This document shows, piece after piece, positions 1 through 27,100 of a stretch of 64,000 bases of DNA (positions are counted from its first letter, which is position 1; each line of letters starts with the position of its first letter). The notes below the pieces were generated by a model. The model worked only from the letters and a program-made list of their open reading frames with translations, was not told the origin of the DNA and made no database searches. This DNA is from Bimastos eiseni (taxonomy: Eukaryota; Annelida; Clitellata; Crassiclitellata; Lumbricidae). The position numbers and the translations under genes were made by a program. The DNA lies in NCBI GenBank assembly GCA_959347315.1, contig OY365818.1, positions 919,964 through 983,963 on the forward strand, given 5' to 3'.

Positions 1-1026
1 GACGTTACAGGCCAACCGCTCTTACCACACACTGGCACACCGGTTGTGTGATTTATGGTTACACCCAATGATATTGATAAATCTCTTGCCACCGACCGAA
101 TTGTTTGATGTGCTGACAAACTTCTTAATACCAAACAAAGCAAGAAGAAGCCGCTGATTACATACTTAGAGCAAAATCGACCAGTGCATGAGAAAATCAA
201 CAACAATTATTACTTGACGGAAGTATGTCAGTGGACACCATCACAGTTCCCAAGATGAAGCAAGGTGGGATGGTCTATAGAACAATGGGGGGGAGGCAAA
301 CTTTCAGTGATTCTAACATCAATTGCCCGTTTTCTCAACCGCTTAACAGCCAATCGTTTTGTTGCATGCGGAACAGATGTTCCTTTGGGTCCACCCTTTG
401 TCACTGACTGTGCATCCAACAGCGTATTATGTATTACTGTACTGCTATGGGTAACCATAAAGCTTATTGATTGATGTTAAAATAATGTCAGTTTTAACCA
501 ATAATGGCAAAACAAATAAGCAAAACAGTGAAGAGTATTCACTCATTCTTTCATTTCGATAATTTCTATACCACCTCCTCAAGGGAAACTACTTAAAGGT
601 GCTCCCAGCCCAGCCACGGCCAAAAAGAAATGACTTTAGCACCTTACAATAGGTAGGTAGATCATTGTAAGGGGGAAGACGAAAGGCAACCGGGAGCCCA
701 TTCTAGGTGGATGGACCAACCACTGAGAAAACTCGATGCAGCATTAGCGACGAGCGTACTCTGGACACCAGAAGCTCGCCTTTAGCATAAGAGCGCAGAG
801 ATTTACGCGAAAAGAGTTCAGACACCGGACGACACAGTTCAATCAAGTAGGATGGCTCACAATATATATATTTATATATAACGTATATTTTATATATACA
901 CTTATAAGCTTCAAGAGCCACCAGCGGTGGGCCCACGCATAAGTGTGCAACCAACCAATGGATTCCCGTTGACAGCTGACAGGTGACATGGATAAATTGA
1001 ATCTTGAATGTTCTATTGTTGTACAG
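1..1026. other. Gene-poor leader region
   Basis: No gene is recognised. Positions 2-172 hold an open stretch on the + strand (ends with TGA) that matches no family I know. Positions about 845-900 are (TA)-rich. Positions about 898-985 on the - strand hold one copy of a dispersed repeat that recurs near 32500 and 61555. Confidence 0.4.
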
Positions 1027-1340
1027 AAGTCTCCGCTGCGGATGTTGAGGTTAAAGTGCCAATCGGTTACGTTACAATGCCAACGCCCACATCCAAGTGG
1101 ATCATCATAATGCAACGCATTAACGGACTCCTCAGCTTCAACAGAACCTGGAATCAATATAGGAATGGATTTCGATCTTTAGGGGCACAGGATGAGTTTT
1201 GGCTTGGAAATGAAATAATCCATCGTTTGACCAACGGTAGCATCTATTCCTTTCGTATAGAGGTACTCACTAATTGAGACCGAGATATTTAACTCTGTAA
1301 ACTTCAGAGTACCTATTTATCGCAATATGTCGGTGAACAA
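1027..1340 (+). pseudogene. Fibrinogen-related (FReD) exon, decayed
   Basis: The translation carries the core of a fibrinogen C-terminal domain: a W-x-x-x-x-Q-R segment, then S-F-x-R-x-W-x-x-Y-x-x-G-F, then EFWLGNE-x-I-H-x-L-T. A likely acceptor (tattgttgtacag) ends at 1026. The frame is cut by TGA at 1275-1277, exactly where the family usually has a tryptophan after L-T-N/D. Homology then resumes in another frame (F-N-S-V-N-F-R-V), so at least one nonsense change and one frameshift are present. Only the N-terminal half of the domain is visible; the cysteine-rich calcium-binding half is absent. FReD proteins are secreted lectin-like or clotting-related molecules; this copy is unlikely to work. 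It could also be one exon of a gene reaching left of the window whose stop is real, but the out-of-frame continuation argues for decay. Confidence 0.7.
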
Positions 1341-4005: not shown

Positions 4006-4148
4006 ATATAGCGCCACTCAAAAGAAAATAACCAGAGGTGCGATCAACTGTAGTGAAACTACATCAGACTAAGACTAGTTATGCAGCGAGGGTGACAATA
4101 CAGTGAGTAAAAATTATTGTGCTTTTTGTTATTTTAAATCAGGTAAAG

Positions 4149-5399
4149 ATGGTCCGCTGTTTTGGAAACTTCGTAGCTGCATTTTGTCTGTTTGCGATCG
4201 CACCGTGTTTCTGTGACACGGAGTCTGATGTGAGTCTTGATGACCGTTACAACACAACTATCAAATCCATAGTTAACATCCTGTGGAAGAGTTTTGAGAA
4301 TGAAATCCGAAATAAGTCCAACGCTCTGCTCTTTGCAATTCCGTCTGCGATCGATATAAATTTCATCAACAAAGTGTTGGATAAAGAAATGAAGGCAAAC
4401 ATTATGAAGTCACTTCCTCTGTACGATCGCTTTCACGTTGATTTAGAAACAGTTGACTACAGGCTGAACAACCAGGAAATACGTTTCAAGACTATTTATC
4501 ACGGAGAGTTGGATGAAATGAATGAGAGAATGCTCGTCGGTCTCGCGTACAGTAAGCTGTCAAAATTCAACAAAGATCGTTACAAGCTCATTATAAGTAA
4601 TATGGAGGATCCAGTGAAGACATTTAACAACCTATATTATGGTACAATTATACCAACTGGGTTGGGTATCAATTGTGACGTAAGAAACTGCGCATATCCA
4701 AGGATACTTTGGCCCCGTGAAGGTCCACGTGAAGGTGCACCATTCGCGATCCTCACTCTAGCCTCTTGGAACATCGAATCAGTTGATGGATTCACGTGGA
4801 CTGAAGAGGTTGATTTTCATCTCTCAGATACGTCGGCAGTCCAGGTCAACGCCGCTCGTGGTTTGAGTGATTTCGACTACGCTGAATTCAGATATCCAAA
4901 GCTAAACGGTTGCACGGGCAGAGTCATTCGGATGCCCTACAAGTGGAACCTTAACCTGACTTTTGTGATTCCATCAGATAAAGAAATGTGCGGTTCATCG
5001 GAGGAATTGTGGAAGAATGTTCAAAATGTTAATCTTAATGCATTGAAGTATAAAAGTCGATCAATGTTTGGGAGCATTCCACTTTTCAAAGTGTCTGCAG
5101 ATATCGATTTGAGAAAGAAACTAGAGGGTACAGTTCTGGCACAAGCTTACAATCGACCATCGTCCACATTGTTCAATACTGTCGCCTTCCAAGCGGCAGA
5201 AGTAAACTTCAATCCACGGATTCCGAAGAGCACGCCAACCCCAACAACCATTCCTGATGATCAAACCTCAATATTTATGGCAGAGCGTCCATTTTTCTTC
5301 GCCTTGTATGATGAGATCAGTCAAATGTTTATTTTCACTGGTCTCATCAACAATCCGGGCTGCACCAGTAAATGCCATATGTATGAAATAGTAAATTAG
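4149..5399 (+). CDS. Secreted serpin-like protein, probably non-inhibitory
   Basis: A single open frame of 416 residues, close to the usual serpin length of about 380-420. The start is the ATG at 4149: it follows a splice acceptor (ttttaaatcag at 4132-4142), the same arrangement is seen in both paralogs, and the in-frame ATG at 4119 lies inside that polypyrimidine tract. Residues 1-22 form a signal peptide ending F-C. Serpin landmarks follow in order: ILTLASWN (the family's 'LvNAiyFkg.W' strand), the 'T..F' segment, RVIRMPYKWNLNLTFVIPSD (the 'LPY...l.iiLP' block), PLFKVSADIDLRKKL, then EVN, and the C-terminal ERPFFFALYDE...FTGLINNP signature. The hinge that inhibitory serpins need (EEGTEAAAAT after EVN) is replaced by a proline/threonine-rich stretch, so inhibition of proteases is unlikely. 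A 12-bp tandem duplication gives REGPREG where the paralog has REG. A poly(A) signal AATAAA is at 5561-5566. Confidence 0.85.
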   Translation: MVRCFGNFVAAFCLFAIAPCFCDTESDVSLDDRYNTTIKSIVNILWKSFENEIRNKSNALLFAIPSAIDINFINKVLDKEMKANIMKSLPLYDRFHVDLETVDYRLNNQEIRFKTIYHGELDEMNERMLVGLAYSKLSKFNKDRYKLIISNMEDPVKTFNNLYYGTIIPTGLGINCDVRNCAYPRILWPREGPREGAPFAILTLASWNIESVDGFTWTEEVDFHLSDTSAVQVNAARGLSDFDYAEFRYPKLNGCTGRVIRMPYKWNLNLTFVIPSDKEMCGSSEELWKNVQNVNLNALKYKSRSMFGSIPLFKVSADIDLRKKLEGTVLAQAYNRPSSTLFNTVAFQAAEVNFNPRIPKSTPTPTTIPDDQTSIFMAERPFFFALYDEISQMFIFTGLINNPGCTSKCHMYEIVN

Positions 5400-9288: not shown

Positions 9289-10461
9289 ATGGCAACTAAT
9301 TGGTGGCTTCCATTAGCAATTTTTAGTCTCTGCTGGACTTTAGTCAATTCCAACGATTCACGTTACAACAGTACCTTAATTTCATGCTGTGGAAGATATT
9401 TTGTGGTAAACAAATACCACGAATGAAATACGAGATAATATCAATACGCTGATGTTTACAATCCCTCTGTCGAGAGATTTGTTATTAATTGATGATATGT
9501 TGAACGAGGAACAGTAGAAGATGTTTAGGAAGTCACTACCGTTGTACGAAAGTTTAGATAACGACCTTGGAGCTGTTGAGAATGAGGTCATCAGAGCATC
9601 GATGCGTGAAATGAGATTCAAGACAATTTACCACGGAAAGATTGAATCACTTGTTAAAAGAATGTCATGCCGTTTCGCTCCACACAAATCTGATTTTCAA
9701 AATGAGCGTGTCTTCCTCGTTCAAACGGAATCACAACTGGTGGAACAAGTTGAGAACAGCTTTATTGGTTTCATCTGTGAAGTCAGGTACTGCGTTATTC
9801 GTGAGATTCTATCCAGTAAAGTGCCTTTCGTGGTTCTCACGTTGGCCACTTGGAATATCTCATCGTGTGAGGGAATGCATCGTGGTTTCATGTGGTATGA
9901 TGTTGTTAAGTTTGCCCTGTCTGAGACGTCATCCATAGACGTCAGAGTCATGCGATGTTACGGAACCTACGATTACACAGAATTCAAGTATCCGAGGCTA
10001 AACGGTTGCACTGGAAGGGTCGTTCGTTTGCGCTACAAGGCGAGCTTCAACATGACATTTGTGATTCCATCAGACAACAAGATGTGCAGTTCATCGGAGG
10101 ACCTGTGGAAGAATGTCCAGAGTGTCAATCTTAATGGACTGAATAATGAAAGGCGAACCTTCTTTCTGAGAATTTCGCTTTCAGGGTTTCCGCGAAAATC
10201 GACTTGAAGATGAAATTGACGGGTACAGTTTTGGCTCAGGCTTTCGATCAAGATACTTCAGGAGTGTATAATGCTCTGGCCTTGCAAGCTGCAGAAGTTA
10301 CTTTCAATCCGGAAATTTTTAACAAGAACTGGCCAACTCCCTCTTTTGGGGCAGATACTTTTCAGGCGGAACGTCCGTTTTACTTCGGTCTTTATAATTC
10401 TTCGACGCAATCGCCGATCTTTGCCTCTCTTATCAACAAAATAATGAATGCAATTGGATAG
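9289..10461 (+). pseudogene. Serpin-like paralog 2, inactivated
   Basis: Starts like copy 1: acceptor tttcatttag, GAAA, then ATG at 9289 and a signal peptide (MATNWWLPLAIFSLCWTLVNS). The frame is lost near 9380 (reads to TGA at 9424), homology resumes in another frame, is stopped by TAG at 9515-9517, runs open 9521-10207 through the RFKTIYHG, LTLATWN and RLNGCTGRVVRLRYK blocks, shifts again near 10190-10205, and ends with QAAEVTFNPE and AERPFYFGLYN. It is more diverged from copy 1 than copy 3 is. As in copy 1 the inhibitory hinge is missing. A poly(A) signal AATAAA is at 10640-10645. Confidence 0.85.
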
Positions 10462-13854: not shown

Positions 13855-15072
13855 ATGGTCAATTGCTACATGTATGGGTTCTGCGTAGCTGCATTTTGAC
13901 TGTTTGCGACTGCACCGTGTTTCTTAGAAACAGAACTTGGGCTGTATCCTGATGACCGTTACAACACAACTATCCAATCTATAGTTAACATCATGTGGAA
14001 AAGTTTTGAGACTGAAATCCGAAACAAGTCCAACTCTATACTCTTTACAATTCCGTCTGCGATCGATATAAATTTCATCAACGAAGCGTTGGATAAAGGA
14101 ATGAAGGCGAGACACTTCATCTGTACGATCGCTTTCACATCTATCTAAGAAAAGCTGATGACAACAGGAAGAGCCCCGAAATACGTTTCAAGACAATTTT
14201 CCAAGGGAGACTTGAATGAAATGATTGAGAGAATGCTAGTTGGTCACGCCTACAGTAAGCTGTCAAAATTCAACGATCGTTACAAGCTCATTATAAGCAA
14301 TAAAGGAAATGGAGTTAGGAAATTTGACAACCTGTATTATACAATTATACCAATTATGTCAATTGCGGTGTAAGGTACTGCGCATATCCAAGGATACTTT
14401 GGCCCCGTGAAGGTGCACCATTCGCGATCCTCACTCTAGCCTCTTGGAATATCGAATCAGTTGATGGATTCACGTGGACTGAAGAGGTTGATTTTCATCT
14501 CTCAGATACGTCGGCAGTCCAGGTCAACGCCGCTCGTGGTTTGAGTGATTTCGACTACGCTGAATTCAGATATCCAAAGCTAAACGGTTGCACCGGCAGA
14601 GTCATTCGAATGCCCTACACGTGGAAGCTTAACCTGACTTTTGTGATTCCATCGGATAAAGAAATGTGCGGTTCATCGGAGGAATTGTGGAAGGATGTTC
14701 AAAATGTTAATCTTAATGCATTGAAGTATAAAAGTCGATCAATGTTTGGGAGCATTCCACTTTTCAAAGCGTCTGCAGATATCGATTTGAGAAAGAAACT
14801 ACATGGAACTGTCCTGGCACAGGCTTTCGATCAACCATCGTCAGATTGTTCAATACAATGGTCTTCTAAGCAGCAGAAGTTAACTTCAATCCACGGATTC
14901 TGAAGAACGCACACACTCCAACTCTTCCTAATGATCAAACCTCACCTCTTTTCGTGGAGCGTTCATTTTTCCTCGTTCTTTTTCATGAGATCAGTCGAAC
15001 GCCTATTTTTACTGGTCTTATCAACAATCCTGGCTGCACCAACGAATGCCATCCAATTCAACTATTTAACTA
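13855..15072 (+). pseudogene. Serpin-like paralog 3, inactivated
   Basis: Acceptor gttaattcag, GAAA, ATG at 13855. A TGT-to-TGA change at 13897-13899 stops translation inside the signal peptide. Homology to copy 1 continues (DDRYNTTI, KSFETEIRNKSN, SAIDINFIN), with frameshifts near 14105-14150 and 14365 and another near the end (about 14850-14900), plus several stops. From about 14385 to 14800 it is almost identical to copy 1 at the base level. Even the 3' flank is shared (ATTAATAAATTCTC and GTTGCCTCTG in both). Signs are of a recent duplicate or gene conversion followed by decay. Confidence 0.9.
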
Positions 15073-19160: not shown

Positions 19161-19168
19161 TATTTAAA
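19161..19168 (+). promoter_or_regulatory. TATA-like box of the nonapeptide precursor
   Basis: TATTTAAA, placed about 170 bases before the ATG. If transcription starts about 30 bases downstream, the 5' UTR (about 19192-19334) contains two to three copies of a 17-base repeat (TGGTTGTCGTTGTCCAC). Confidence 0.45.
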
Positions 19169-19334
19169 GGACCCCTCTGACACTGAACAGACAGGACCGA
19201 CAAGTCTTGGTAGTCGTTGTCCATTGGTTGTCGTTGTCCACTGGTTGTCGTTGTCTACAGGTTGTCGTCCTGATTGTTGGGTTTCGTTGCGTTTGGTTGT
19301 CGTTGTCTCATCCCTTGTTGCAAAAAAGTTGGCC

Positions 19335-22300
19335 ATGTTTGTTGAGTCTTGGAGCCGTGTTTCCGTTTCCGGCATCGTCTTTATCAGTGTCGTCACGATC
19401 GTATCCGGTTGTTTCATGGCTGACTGTCCAAGAGGAGGAAAGCGATCGGGATTGGAAGGGCTTGCCAACCTTCCTGCCAGACAGGTAAGCGCATTGACGA
19501 GGTCGTCACTTAGGCTACACAATTCGGTCGGTGCTGGATTAACGAATATACATGTAAGATATTAATGCCTTGGCAATTATTGTAGTTCACTGTACATGTA
19601 TCTAAGCATTGTAGACCGCTCTTTTAGAGTAAACCGCTAAGAAGCGCTGCCAGTGCGCAAGGCCCTGCGAGAAGAAGTAGTTTGTGAGAAAAGCGAAAGA
19701 GGAAGACAGAGTGAGAGACTGCCAAATGGAAATTTAGAGCTTGCAGGAAGAGATAGTGCATTCCGCAGAGAGAATGACAAATTGACCATAATGTTTTTAT
19801 TAATTCCATCAGTAAAACAATTTATCGCAATAGGTCTAAGTAGTACGATTAGCCTTTATACAGCGATATTAACACAAGTCTAAAGGGAACAATATGGAGA
19901 GAGAAAAACGAAAGAAGACCAAATTTTCCAGATCATGGAACTGAATTCCGTCTCCTATTCGGAAACCTAACAATGTTCACGTTCAGGAAATGTTATCATG
20001 TAACGTTGAAATAGTCGGAGCCATTGACTTGTTCAAAATTCGAAACCAGCCTTCAATTGTCATTCAGCGCTTCAACGCTGTCGCCTTCCGCATTACTTTT
20101 TTTATGCCTAAACCGGAAGAGACGTAACCGTTCCAGATTACCCATTTTATCTGTCTCAGGAGAGTTTGTTATCACCTGATGGATCAAAGCCACATCGAGT
20201 ATAATAACTAAAATAATGACGACGATTTATAGGGCGCCGTAACGCAGCCATACAGCTGCAAGAAGATCTAGATAAATCTGTCGGATAAGTCAAAGCAAAA
20301 TAGATTTGTTCCAAGCCGGTTTCAAGACCAAATGCGCTCGTGAATAAGCTGGTGCCCTATGCTCGGCTTTCTAGTGTTGCTTTAGGAGTTCGGAGATTAC
20401 GTTACCTTTAGAGTTCATAGGTACCCTTTGGGTGACCTTTAAACGTTACCTGTAGAGTTAACCTTTGGGTGACCTTTATACATCACCTGTAGAAGTGATC
20501 TTTGAGTGATCTTTATACGTTACCTGTGAATGTAGTCCTAATGTTGCTGTATCGTTTCGGTTCAGTGCCTATCCTGTGGACCGAAGAACCAGGGCCACTG
20601 CGTCGCTGAGAACATCTGTTGTGGTCGAGACATCGGTTGCTATCTGGGAACGGAGGAGACGACGAATTGCCAACGAGAGAACTCCATTGCCATGCCTTGT
20701 CGACCGACGGGCAAGCCGTGTGGGTTGGCGAGCCGCGGAGTATGTGCCGCAAGGGGAGTCTGCTGCGTTGAAGGTGAACGTGGCGCTATATAAATCCTCT
20801 GAAGAGGTGCTATATATATGCTCAGAAGGAGCGCTATATAAATGCTCAGAATGGCTCCATATAATTTGCTCAATAGGGGCGCTATATAAATGATTGGAAG
20901 GGATCTATATAAATGAATGAATGAATGAATGAATGAATGAATGAATGAATGAATGAATGAATGAATGAATGAATGAATGAATGAATGAATGAATGAATGA
21001 ATGAATGAATGAATGAATGAATGAATGAATGAATGAATGAATGAATGAATGAATGAATGAATGAATGAATGAATGAATGAATGAATGAATGAATGAATGA
21101 ATGAATGATTACCTGGCGCTTAATGCTAAAGCGAAGTAAGGGCCCATCCATATATTATGTTCGCAAAAAAAATCGGATTTTCGGACCCCCTTACCTTGTT
21201 GCACTGCGTACATTTCGTGGACCCCTCCCACAAGGCGTACTTAGCCTACATTTGAGCTCTAACCCCCTTTTCCATTGCAGAAGTTATATAGCTAAAGACA
21301 TCTAGAAGACATTGATTTTACCACAGGTTATTTATTTATTTTGTTAAGCATCATATTTAACAACTTAAATTTGTTAACTGTAATGAAGAAATAAAATACT
21401 AACAATACTTGCATTTTGAGTTTTAATGCTACATAAAATTGTTTAAGCAGAGATATAGTTTGTGATTGGGTTTAATATTCCGTATTGTGTACGTCAAAAT
21501 TAGAAAATTATACTTGCATACGTGCATTTTTCGGGACCCCTCCCCCACCATACGCACCCGTACGCAAATACGCCGAAAATCGAAACCCCTCCTTCTCGCT
21601 GCGTACGTAATATGTGAACGGCCCCTAACTAACCAATTTTGACTAGGCTATAGTTATACTTACTTAACTTACTGCGGTGTGTCAGTTTGTAAAATAAACG
21701 AAGATACACAAATACTTTAGCACCACAGTTTGTGAAATGGTCTTCTAAAGGACACGTACGTTATTGTGGTCTTGTTGTAAGAGTAGGTTCTCAAGACACT
21801 TCGTTGACTGACCCAAGCTTCGGTGATTTCAACATTTATTTTCATTTTTTCTACGTAAGGCTTCCGTGAAGCGGTATCGTGCTTTATCGGACTGCTTGGA
21901 ATGACCTCCCATTGGATCATCAGACCTTGCCTAGGAACTTTCCATCCCAATTCCCTTCTACTCTGAAATCTGTCTTCATTGGCCGAGGTTGGACTGGGAG
22001 ATCCTTCGAGGAGATTTCTGAAGAGACTGCTTGGAATGGCCTACCATTGGATCTTCTGCTATAATTGCCAAGGAACTCTCGATCCTCTTTCTATTCTTCC
22101 TACTCTGAAATCTGCAATCTTTGGCTGAGACTGGACTGGGAGATCCTTAGAGGAGATTTGTGAAGAGGCGCTATATCAAGTTTAATTCATTAATAGGCCC
22201 ATGCAAACTGCGGTGCGGGTGTATCTTTCACATTATTATAATAATAATACTGCGTCATCGTTCACTTAGATGAGCTTATTCTGTTATTTTTTCAACTAAA

Positions 22301-22396
22301 TACCTAATTTCAATTGTAAATTGTTGCCTTCCTATTGATTCAACTGTATCTATTGTTTCAGCTGCTTGCTTACTGGACGAAGACTGCAGCGAATGA
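19335..22396 (+). CDS. Vasopressin/oxytocin-type neurophysin precursor, complete
   Basis: Three exons, about 130 residues: 19335-19484, 20566-20773, 22362-22396. Exon 1 encodes a 25-residue signal peptide (MFVESWSRVSVSGIVFISVV, then TIVSG), the nonapeptide CFMADCPRG, the amidation/cleavage site GKR and a linker ending in ARQ, then donor GTAAGC. Exon 2 begins after tttcggttcag with CLSCGPKNQGHC and carries the neurophysin core to GVCCVE, then donor GTGAAC. Exon 3 follows ttgtttcag, adds AACLLDEDCSE and stops. All 14 neurophysin cysteines are present, and the Glu in NCQREN matches the residue that binds the hormone amino terminus in vertebrate neurophysins. Intron positions and phases (RQ|CL, GVCC-x-x|) match vertebrate vasopressin genes. 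There is no copeptin. The peptide would be a disulphide-cyclised, amidated neurohormone acting through a vasopressin-receptor-type GPCR. Residues 3-5 (Met-Ala-Asp) are unusual: position 5 is Asn in almost all relatives. The start at 19335 is chosen because it gives a standard signal peptide; the longer in-frame extension is low-complexity repeat. Confidence 0.93.
20334..20400 (+). repeat. Dispersed repeat GCGCTCGTGAATAAGC
   Basis: Shares GCGCTCGTGAATAAGCTG, CTCGGCTTTC and GTTCGGAGATTACG with 51155-51220, and partly with 42819-42856 and 8285-8365. Probably part of a SINE or other retroelement in intron 1 of the nonapeptide gene. Confidence 0.5.
20401..20535 (+). repeat. 37-bp tandem repeat before exon 2
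   Basis: Three imperfect copies of GTTACCTGTAGAGTTAACC plus TTTGGGTGACCTTTATAC. It ends about 30 bases before the exon 2 acceptor of the nonapeptide gene. Confidence 0.65.
20780..20910 (+). repeat. Tandemly reiterated retrotransposon tail
   Basis: Five to six imperfect copies of GCGCTATATAAATGCTCAGA, directly after the exon 2 donor and running into the (ATGA)n array. Confidence 0.7.
20911..21109 (+). repeat. (ATGA)n microsatellite, about 49 units
   Basis: Nearly perfect ATGA repeat of about 200 bases in intron 2 of the nonapeptide gene. Confidence 0.95.
21139..21625. mobile_element. MITE with TA target duplication
   Basis: Left end AGGGCCCATCCATATATTAT and, on the other strand, right end GGGGCCGTTCACATATTACG are imperfect inverted repeats continuing through CGATTTTCGG on both sides. 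The element is bounded by TA at 21137-21138 and 21626-21627. It has no coding capacity and lies in intron 2 of the nonapeptide gene. Confidence 0.7.
21870..22185 (+). mobile_element. LINE 3' end fragment, tandemly duplicated
   Basis: Encodes TAWNDLP...FPSTLKSVFIG, the usual C-terminal 'aWN.LP...F...LK..lf' motif of CR1/L2-type reverse transcriptases. A second copy of the unit starts 136 bases later (22026) with TAWNGLPLD. The segment ends in GAAGAGGCGCTATAT, the tail seen in other copies. Confidence 0.6.
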
Positions 22397-22657: not shown

Positions 22658-22663
22658 AATAAA
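22658..22663 (+). terminator. Poly(A) signal of the nonapeptide precursor
   Basis: AATAAA about 260 bases after the stop codon at 22394-22396. Confidence 0.55.
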
Positions 22664-24116: not shown

Positions 24117-27100
24117 TCAGTTGAGGAAGCGTATGCTCATCTTCTGCTCCACGTCGACCTTCTCCATGACCTTGACGAACTCGTCAAAAGAAATGCTTCC
24201 GTCGTGGTCCAGGTCGGCCTCAAGAATCGTCCGGTCGGCTATGCTTCCGAGCTGTGGAGAAAAGTTCAGAGGGCAAGTTAGACAAGATGAGGCAAGCCGG
24301 GAAAGGCAACCTTGCCTGACTACGCAAGTTATGCATGGTAAGGAAAGTTGGGAAAGGCAGCATAGGCAAGGCAAGATAATTATGCAAAGTAGGCAACCTT
24401 AGGAAGGTATGCTATGTATGAGTTGCTGTGTTTGATTACACTAATGATAGACACGGCAAGATGGGTAGATGGGCAAGTTAGACGATGTAAAATAAATTAG
24501 GCAAGAAAGGCAAGCCAGGCATCACTATCATATCTCTGAACTCGAAAACCAAGCACAGCACACGATGTCTGGGCACCAGCTAATTACAGAGCTTTGACGA
24601 GGTAAGGCAAATAAGATATGATAGGTTAGACCCGGGAGAGGAAGGCAAATAAAGTTAGGCATAGTTACATTACATTGTGTGGCACTATGGCCAATCGGTT
24701 AGAGCAGTCAGCCCGTAACGTCCGAGGCGTCACTGTGTAGGGACCTTGAGCAAGTACTTCATGCATAATTGCTCTGCATTAAACTGCAGTTGCGCCGTCA
24801 AGGTGTGTGCACTTCTGAGCAAAAAATGTTGGAAGAACAGCGATATCAAATAAAATTAGGCAGGTTACTCAAGATAATATAGTTTAGGAAATGGTATTGA
24901 ATGAGTTCCCCAATATAAAATGTTATCTGCAATCATCTGTCAGAATACTCGAAGCCCAGCAGAGTAGACACCAAAGGGAGAGCCAGCTGAAGCAGTGGTA
25001 AGCAGAAACTGATCACTGACTGACCAACCTGTTCCTCAGAGATGTTTGCTCCGACCATCATGTGCAGGACCTGCAGAAGTTCGTCACGAGAAATCTTGTT
25101 GTCCTTGTTCAGGTCGTACATCTTGAAAGCAACTATGCAGGAAAGACAACAACAACATCAATGACAAAAGAGGTCAAAAAAGAAAGCTACCCCATTGCAC
25201 AATGGAACCAAGCACTGCAGTCTTTGAGCAGTAGGTGTACACAAGGAGTAACAAAATTGGCTCAAAGCTTGAAAGCTTCTGATGAGAAATCGAAGTATAT
25301 AACATAGCAAGAGGTAAAATAGAACCAGAGATGCACATGAGTCTAGATTAGATTAAATTAACATGAGTCAACATTCGATAAACATGGCTCTAAATAAGAT
25401 CAACAGAAGTCTAGATTAATGCAAATCAATATTAGATAAGATTAACATAATTCTAGATCAGATAAACATGTGCACAGATAACATAAGCATGAGTCTATAC
25501 ATTGGATTAGATTAACATGAGCTAAGATTAGAGCAGATCAAAGCAAGTCTGGATTATGTAGATTATACTAACATGAGCTAAGATTAGAGCAGATTAACTT
25601 GAGTATGAATTATTTAGATTAGATTAACATGAGACTGGATTAGATAAACGTAACATTTGAGTAGTTATACATCTGAGTTTCTCATCGCGACTGTTCAGTT
25701 CGCTCGTCTCCTTTGTTTTGATTGGACGAAAGCGTGCCAGGGTCCGCATGAACTGCCGGAAATTCACTCCATCACCCTCAGTCCTAAAACAAAAAACCCA
25801 CAGACCATGCCATAACATAACCTCATAATAACAAATTCTATATATAGCATAACCTCATCATAAAACGACATAGTTATAACATGACGACATAATGGCCTAA
25901 TTATAACATGACGACGTAATGACCTAGTTATATCATGACCACGCACTGACCTAGTTATAACCTAATGTAACAATGACAACATACTGACCTAGTTATAACA
26001 TGACGACGTAATGACCTAGTTATAACATGACCTTGCTATGATATAACCTCTTTATCAGATGACTTCTTCATGACCTTGTCGTAACACAGTCTCATCACAA
26101 CAAGATCGCATCATAACATTACCTAGTTATAATATGACCTCATTATAGTAGCCCACAGCGGGTGCATACTGGCAAATATTAGAACACACCCAACATATAG
26201 ACTAGAAAAACATAAAGTACCAGTGCACAAATACTGGAAAATAGGCGATAACAGTGCACATAGTCTCCAGTTCACATACTAGCAAATACGCAGTACCCAT
26301 TATGGAAAGTAATCAATACCCATTATACACACTGGCAAATAGACAGCATCCAGTATACATTGGCAATAAAAGAGTTTTTACTACATATTTACCATACTCC
26401 TGATTACCATTGGTAAATAGACTGCAGTAAATGTGCCACAGCAAGTCCTATAAACAGGTTGTTGACTATTAATGAGATATGATAGAATCACTTAAACTTT
26501 CCAAATATCTACTTTCTCTAAATCTACAGACGACGATCCACTCAGGATATGTTTTCACTATGTCGAAGTAGAACTGAAGTGGTTCTGGCTGCATTCAAAG
26601 AGACTGTTGACAGATATTACCAAATAATCCAGATAGCCCACAATCAAAACATTAAAGAAACCCGACTAAGCAAATATCCGACAATCGTTCATTTATGACC
26701 CTGCATACCAAATTAGTCCATAAGCATTTAGAAACTCGAAGAAAAACTCAACAATACAACACAAGGGACGTTTTTCATTCAATGCAGAATGTAGTCAAGC
26801 CTTCAAAGTCAATAAACCCGTTATATAATGGGTAATTTATCATCTCAAAGTGATTCTCAAAAGACATCTTATTTGCCTCATTAAAATACTGCAAACTCAC
26901 GAATACAAAGTTAGGTTTGTCCAATTGCAACAAAACATTGTAGTTATGGGCAAGCAATGAACTCAGTACACTAAACATCTTTAAACTCTCTTAAAACACA
27001 CTTGGATAGGTCCCCGAGATATGCGGTTTGTGCAGAACTTAGAAGGAACAATAAAAGAAGTGTTTGTAATAGTAATTTTAATCAAGCATTTGTAAAGAGC

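Follow-up and report, generated by a model that had tools for sequence, protein, structure and literature searches.

The window, a stretch of 64,000 nucleotides of an annelid genome, contains a gene that, judged from its sequence, very probably works as the source of a secreted neuropeptide prohormone of the vasopressin/oxytocin type. Its predicted peptide is CFMADCPRG-amide. Going beyond the original prediction, which concerned this precursor, the gene is one of four paralogs that occur together with a set of receptors in the same genome. One new precursor on its own would be an ordinary sort of find; what should surprise a specialist is that a single annelid has four ligands together with about seven receptors.

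Structure and family of the window gene

The precursor is encoded on the plus strand by three coding exons at 19335-19484, 20566-20773 and 22362-22396, with lengths of 150, 208 and 35 bases. The introns lie in phase 0 and phase 1, and the spliced product has 130 residues. When all splice sites 8 to 10 positions around each boundary were tried, a single GT/AG combination was valid and kept the frame. Upstream of the precursor the frame is broken by stops.

Exon 1 (19335..19484, plus strand, 50 codons, donor CAG/GTAAGC) opens with a signal-peptide-like leader of 25 residues (19335..19409), in which a hydrophobic core was recognized by eye in the translation. Directly after it the translation gives the nonapeptide CFMADCPRG (19410..19436), then GKR (19437..19445), whose role as amidation and dibasic cleavage site is known for the family, and 13 further residues. 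Intron 1 (19485..20565, phase 0) closes with the acceptor TTTCGGTTCAG. Exon 2 (20566..20773, donor GAAG/GTGAAC) carries the neurophysin core, matched by Hormone_5, with 12 of its 14 cysteines, and a Glu codon at 20677..20679 that aligns with Glu47 of bovine neurophysin II. Intron 2, set by its splice sites (20774..22361, phase 1), ends in the acceptor TTGTTTCAG, after which exon 3 (22362..22396) supplies the final two bases of a split Ala codon, the residues ACLLDEDCSE and the stop TGA. On the same strand, TATTTAA at 19161..19167, about 170 bases 5' of the start codon, is a possible TATA element, and AATAAA at 22658..22663 a possible polyadenylation signal; both are short-word matches, which are no proof of function. 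A perfect (AATG)49 tract occupies 20912-21108 in intron 2, and a 17-base minisatellite of 3.6 copies lies at 19208-19268, within what is presumably the 5' untranslated region. Nothing in the window reached gathering scores in an Rfam scan.

The original prediction of a complete vasopressin/oxytocin-type precursor with this nonapeptide was borne out in its coordinates, GT/AG sites, phases and translation, as was its statement that none of the three exons exceeds 70 codons. The GKR after CFMADCPRG, the 14-cysteine neurophysin and the ACLLDEDCSE end are present in translation and alignment, and the claimed boundary positions, RQ/CL and GVCC, hold.

Family membership was examined with several methods. 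Hormone_5 (PF00184) was the only Pfam family found in the window protein, with the whole profile covered (E 4.9e-23; 82.2 bits against a cut-off of 27.2). A neurophysin profile search had been named beforehand as a possible refuter, and it proved significant. Among solved sequences, all eight matches were neurophysins, neurophysin II giving E 2.6e-20. Alignment to bovine neurophysin II shows 14 cysteines in the neurophysin part, or 16 including the two of the peptide. The peptide itself has the Cys1, Cys6, Pro7 and Gly9 of the family pattern, and GKR follows directly. The motif C-x4-C-P-x-G-G-[KR]-[KR] occurs once in the six frames of the window, compared with 0 in 150 base-shuffled windows; the looser motif without the proline occurs once, compared with 5 in 150 shuffles.

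Exon 2 ends with VCCVE plus one base, which by counting in the alignment places the boundary with exon 3 between residues 76 and 77 of bovine neurophysin II, a position that we take to be the exact site of the vertebrate intron. Glu47 of the bovine protein is presumably the contact of the hormone's free N-terminus. For amphioxus, the introns of the gene are described as the same as in vertebrate genes in both position and phase (PMC2656470). As far as its sequence tells, the window gene truly belongs to the vasopressin/oxytocin family and is new to it. CFMADCPRG was absent from the main texts of the open papers searched, in line with the original remark that no described member was known to have this nonapeptide; supplements may list it.

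Paralogs, receptors and genomic surroundings

The genome comprises 660 Mb in 118 contigs, and the window corresponds to 919964-983963 of contig C13. Scanning the entire genome with the PF00184 profile, with 7 candidates scored, gave 4 matches, all above the curated cut-off, while 0 of 14 control genomes matched. Paralog A is the window gene (CFMADCPRG, 130 residues). Paralog B, on the minus strand of C1 (exons 19998664-19998497, 19995306-19995099 and 19994410-19994376), encodes CIVHNCPVG in 136 residues. Paralog C, on the plus strand of C1 (33110322-33110474, 33110757-33110991 and 33111593-33111630), encodes CYITPCIVG in 141 residues, and paralog D, on the plus strand of C4 (18472410-18472580, 18473368-18473587 and 18474191-18474222), encodes CFVRNCPTG in 140 residues. 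The four genes thus lie on three chromosome-size contigs, with B and C about 13 Mb apart on C1. The models of B, C and D were assembled partly manually and partly with a script. Their start codons were assigned from the look of the sequence, as was exon 3 in C and D; for exon 3 of B a motif scan offered two candidates, and the nearer one was adopted.

All four completed paralogs exceed the Pfam cut-off and share three exons, RQ before intron 1 (RQC), phases 0 and 1, GKR and a 14-cysteine neurophysin. In each of them the Glu aligned with bovine Glu47 falls in the invariant column E38 of exon 2. The C-x4-C-x2-G-GKR pattern is found in B, C and D too, and Pro7 is present in the peptides of B and D, paralog C having Ile at this position. 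With CYITPCIVG-GKR (L003/L011, C1:33110322-33111630), paralog C is an unusual member, with Pro at 5 and Ile at 7; cysteines 9 and 10 of its neurophysin are also separated by an insertion. The peptides of A, B and C depart from the annelid pattern, and those of B and C were absent from the open-paper main texts searched, with listing in supplements possible.

Full-length identity among the four paralogs is 34-50%, and neurophysin identity is 40-52% (A and D 40%). To bovine neurophysin II, A and B are 48%, C 41% and D 42% identical. In all six paralog pairs the difference at silent sites is near saturation (pS 0.71-0.83), and that at amino-acid-changing sites is lower (pN 0.33-0.46). Such values indicate that the copies are old and constrained, as opposed to recently duplicated, and, as sequence estimates, they conform to the pattern expected under purifying selection. 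A neurophysin tree of the four paralogs and bovine neurophysin II placed C with D (support 0.91) and B with the bovine sequence (0.67); it is too thin for dating the duplications and weak beyond the C-D pair. Duplication by haplotigs or assembly was ruled out, as the paralogs are 34-50% identical and the seven receptors described below at most 62%. For signs of block duplication, the ORFs in 19 stretches flanking B, C and D were listed (D's flank least completely), and five flank ORFs were compared with Pfam; no shared neighbour family appeared among those covered, which is weak evidence.

The genome probably also contains about seven vasopressin/oxytocin-type receptor genes. The query was a hand-written family consensus of the TM2-TM4 part. 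It gave at least 146 matches at E ≤0.001 in the 150 of 546 candidates scored. The top six matches have 54-63% identity with E ≤7e-34, the seventh 54% over 79 residues with E 8.2e-24, and at the eighth identity falls to 46%. Loci were read for the best 12 matches, and 7 of the 12 were compared with solved structures. These seven ORFs are mutually distinct (at most 62% identical), and one of them, L039, lies on the small contig C49. In every one of the seven comparisons, ranks 1-12 went to one and the same set of twelve V1a, V2 and oxytocin receptor sequences. The next hit, at rank 13, was a GnRH or cholecystokinin receptor, with an E value about 10 to 30 orders of magnitude weaker than that of rank 12.

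Five of the seven reach the end of TM6, and each of the five has a GT donor just after the AP-x-[DE] motif (in L035 by eye), a position at which vertebrate vasopressin/oxytocin receptors presumably have an intron as well. In L034 and L037 the ORF runs out at the second extracellular loop or shortly beyond it, as it would if an intron lay there. The TM1-TM2 part of L040, the seventh ORF, sits in a frame of its own further upstream, which would fit an additional intron. The second loop of L034, L037 and L040 is without the CW pair found in the other four. Among the solved chains listed for the seven ORFs there was no CCAP or neuropeptide S receptor; a sister-family receptor may be among the seven, above all L034, L037 or L040. 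The next tier (L041-L044, 38-46% identity) consists of four related ORFs that by eye resemble the GnRH/corazonin receptor group.

Several neighbouring genes were observed. Upstream of the window gene stands a row of serpin-like ORFs on the plus strand (4107-5396, 9518-10204 and 14328-14900), all three matched by Pfam Serpin, with the one at 9518 below the curated cut-off, and a Fibrinogen_C-like exon lies at 1008-1274 (plus strand, E 1.5e-15). Downstream, on the opposite strand, are exons resembling calcineurin B homologous protein 1 (CHP1) at 24120-24398 and 24936-25157. Paralog C is followed, tail to tail and about 0.7 kb downstream, by a seven-helix receptor ORF of 429 residues (L011:2293-3579, minus strand; C1:33112292-33113578), closest to neuropeptide Y receptor type 2 with E 5.8e-57.

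Contig C118, of 15,339 bases, is the mitochondrial genome. Its COX1 reads through in the invertebrate code (table 5), with AAA as Lys and AGA/AGG as Ser, and ATA fits Met; the positions used for these readings are presumably conserved places. The order is cox1, cox2, tRNA(GTC), atp8, tRNAs (GTA, TCC), cox3, nad6, cob, atp6, a repeat region, nad5, nad4L, nad4, a presumed rRNA stretch, nad1, nad3, tRNA(TCT) and nad2, with the named protein genes on one strand; we take this order to be typical of annelids. The gene names and the anticodons GTC, GTA and TCC were read from letters and translations, and the TCT tRNA was found by ARAGORN with the bacterial code in the piece scanned. An echinoderm or hemichordate origin, suggested at first by D5 and R8 of the window peptide and by repeats, was discarded on account of these mitochondrial codon readings and this gene order. 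Among 35 COX1 matches in all, six near full-length copies lie on large contigs (C4, C5, C6, C15 and C16), where their standard-code stops are all TGA; these copies are likely young mitochondrial insertions.

Proposed function and alternative readings

Gene structure, family membership, paralogs and receptor genes were observed directly, and from them the steps after translation can be inferred. The leader would direct the precursor into the ER, where the two cysteines of the peptide would close a six-residue ring. The neurophysin would fold with seven disulphides, hold the N-terminus of the peptide via the conserved glutamate and carry it into dense-core granules. Cleavage at GKR, together with amidation, would then release cyclic CFMADCPRG-amide, which may activate at least one of the approximately seven vasopressin/oxytocin-type receptors of the genome and, as annetocin does in earthworms, might control muscle, nephridia and reproductive behaviour.

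The intact precursor, the constraint on the paralogs and the receptor set all count for a working gene. That the window copy is an unexpressed relic, a dead duplicate of intact look, is very unlikely. An exon 3 of only 35 bases and the long simple repeat in intron 2 might be taken as signs of decay, but the frame, the splice sites and the 14 cysteines are intact in this copy and in all four, and amino-acid changes are fewer than silent ones, which approach saturation. Assignment to another neurophysin-bearing family, of the NG peptide/neuropeptide S type, has a negligible probability. NG-peptide precursors are also described as containing a neurophysin (PMC8557429), but they would be known by an NG-motif peptide without a Cys1-Cys6 ring. 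In the window precursor the peptide has the C-x4-C form, C-x4-C-P-R-G with GKR directly behind it; B, C and D show C-x4-C-x2-G-GKR.

A further and improbable reading is that the extra paralogs, including the one in the window, were recruited as exocrine or venom-like secretions directed at receptors in other animals, in the manner of cone-snail conopressins. There are precedents in the putative toxins of ribbon worms that are reported as homologous to vasotocin-neurophysin (PMC9132205) and in the conopressins of cone-snail venom (PMC7143535), and divergence of the peptides of A, B and C from the annelid pattern would suit such a use. However, all four precursors have kept an entire neurophysin as well as GKR and the glutamate at the aligned position, whereas conopressins M1 and M2 are described without the usual GKR (PMC7143535). 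Moreover, the genome's own receptor set is expanded as well, which speaks against targets in other animals.

With a working neuropeptide gene as the preferred reading, the next matter is how ligands and receptors are paired. It is predicted as most likely that the window peptide prefers a receptor other than that of the annetocin-type peptide CFVRNCPTG, since it is without the Arg4 and Asn5 of the latter. A broader proposal is that a multi-channel system, with four ligands and about seven receptors, arose in an annelid lineage independently of the vertebrate one. Under this proposal the diverged ligands (the Arg8-type CFMADCPRG; CIVHNCPVG; and CYITPCIVG, with Pro5 and without Pro7) would pair with their own receptors, and the functions of a single annetocin system would have been split. 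The chances for and against this proposal appear evenly balanced. Vasopressin and oxytocin signalling ranks among the most thoroughly studied of peptide systems. A worm that has four precursors and about seven receptors would be a second natural experiment, beside that of vertebrates, in the multiplication and pairing of a ligand-receptor family, and with this set co-expansion of ligands and receptors outside vertebrates becomes testable. As the four peptides differ inside the ring, they provide natural tests of the positions that set receptor choice.

Comparison with known systems

The comparison with other annelids is drawn from one survey (PMC8557429) and one review (PMC7181382). Annetocin of Eisenia fetida is CFVRNCPTG-amide, and is described in the earthworm as acting on gut and nephridia contraction and on egg-laying behaviour (PMC7181382). 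The peptide of paralog D is identical to it and is followed by GKR; the two share the family and the phylum inferred for the present genome. The window peptide differs from annetocin at positions 3, 4, 5 and 8 (M, A, D and R in place of V, R, N and T). The Val3-Arg4-Asn5 ring of the annelid CFVRN-CPxG form is present in paralog D and absent in the window peptide, which has Met3-Ala4-Asp5. With four differences, three of which fall inside the ring, the window peptide would be expected to have its own preference among the receptors. For the Aplysia peptide on its two receptors, amidation and the disulphide are reported as critical, and ring residues as tending toward larger effects (PMC10067623).

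According to the 2021 survey, one precursor appears to be the general rule in annelids and molluscs (PMC8557429), and invertebrates are described as having a vasopressin-family or an oxytocin-family peptide, seldom both (PMC2656470). The four copies seen here may be particular to this species or widespread in a clade to which transcriptome surveys have given too little coverage. Two vasotocin-related paralogs are reported in lingulid and craniid brachiopods, phoronids and one palaeonemertean, generally with no matching receptor duplications in the account given there (PMC8557429). These lophotrochozoans resemble the present genome in having more than one precursor, with two in their case and four here. 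Octopus and Sepia likewise provide a protostome example of more than one family peptide, again two as against four and with another peptide pattern (PMC7181382). Outside the protostomes, CFISDCARG of the hemichordate Saccoglossus kowalevskii resembles the window peptide in F2, D5 and R8, and differs in I3, S4 and A7 as against M3, A4 and P7 (PMC7181382).

Vertebrate vasopressin/oxytocin precursors have in common with the window precursor the three exons, the intron phases, GKR and the 14-cysteine neurophysin (48% identity to bovine neurophysin II). Vasopressin itself, CYFQNCPRG, shares Arg8 with the window peptide, but has Y2 in place of F2 and F-Q-N in place of M-A-D at positions 3-5. Unlike the vasopressin precursor, that of the window has no copeptin part after the neurophysin, and the oxytocin precursor is also without it.
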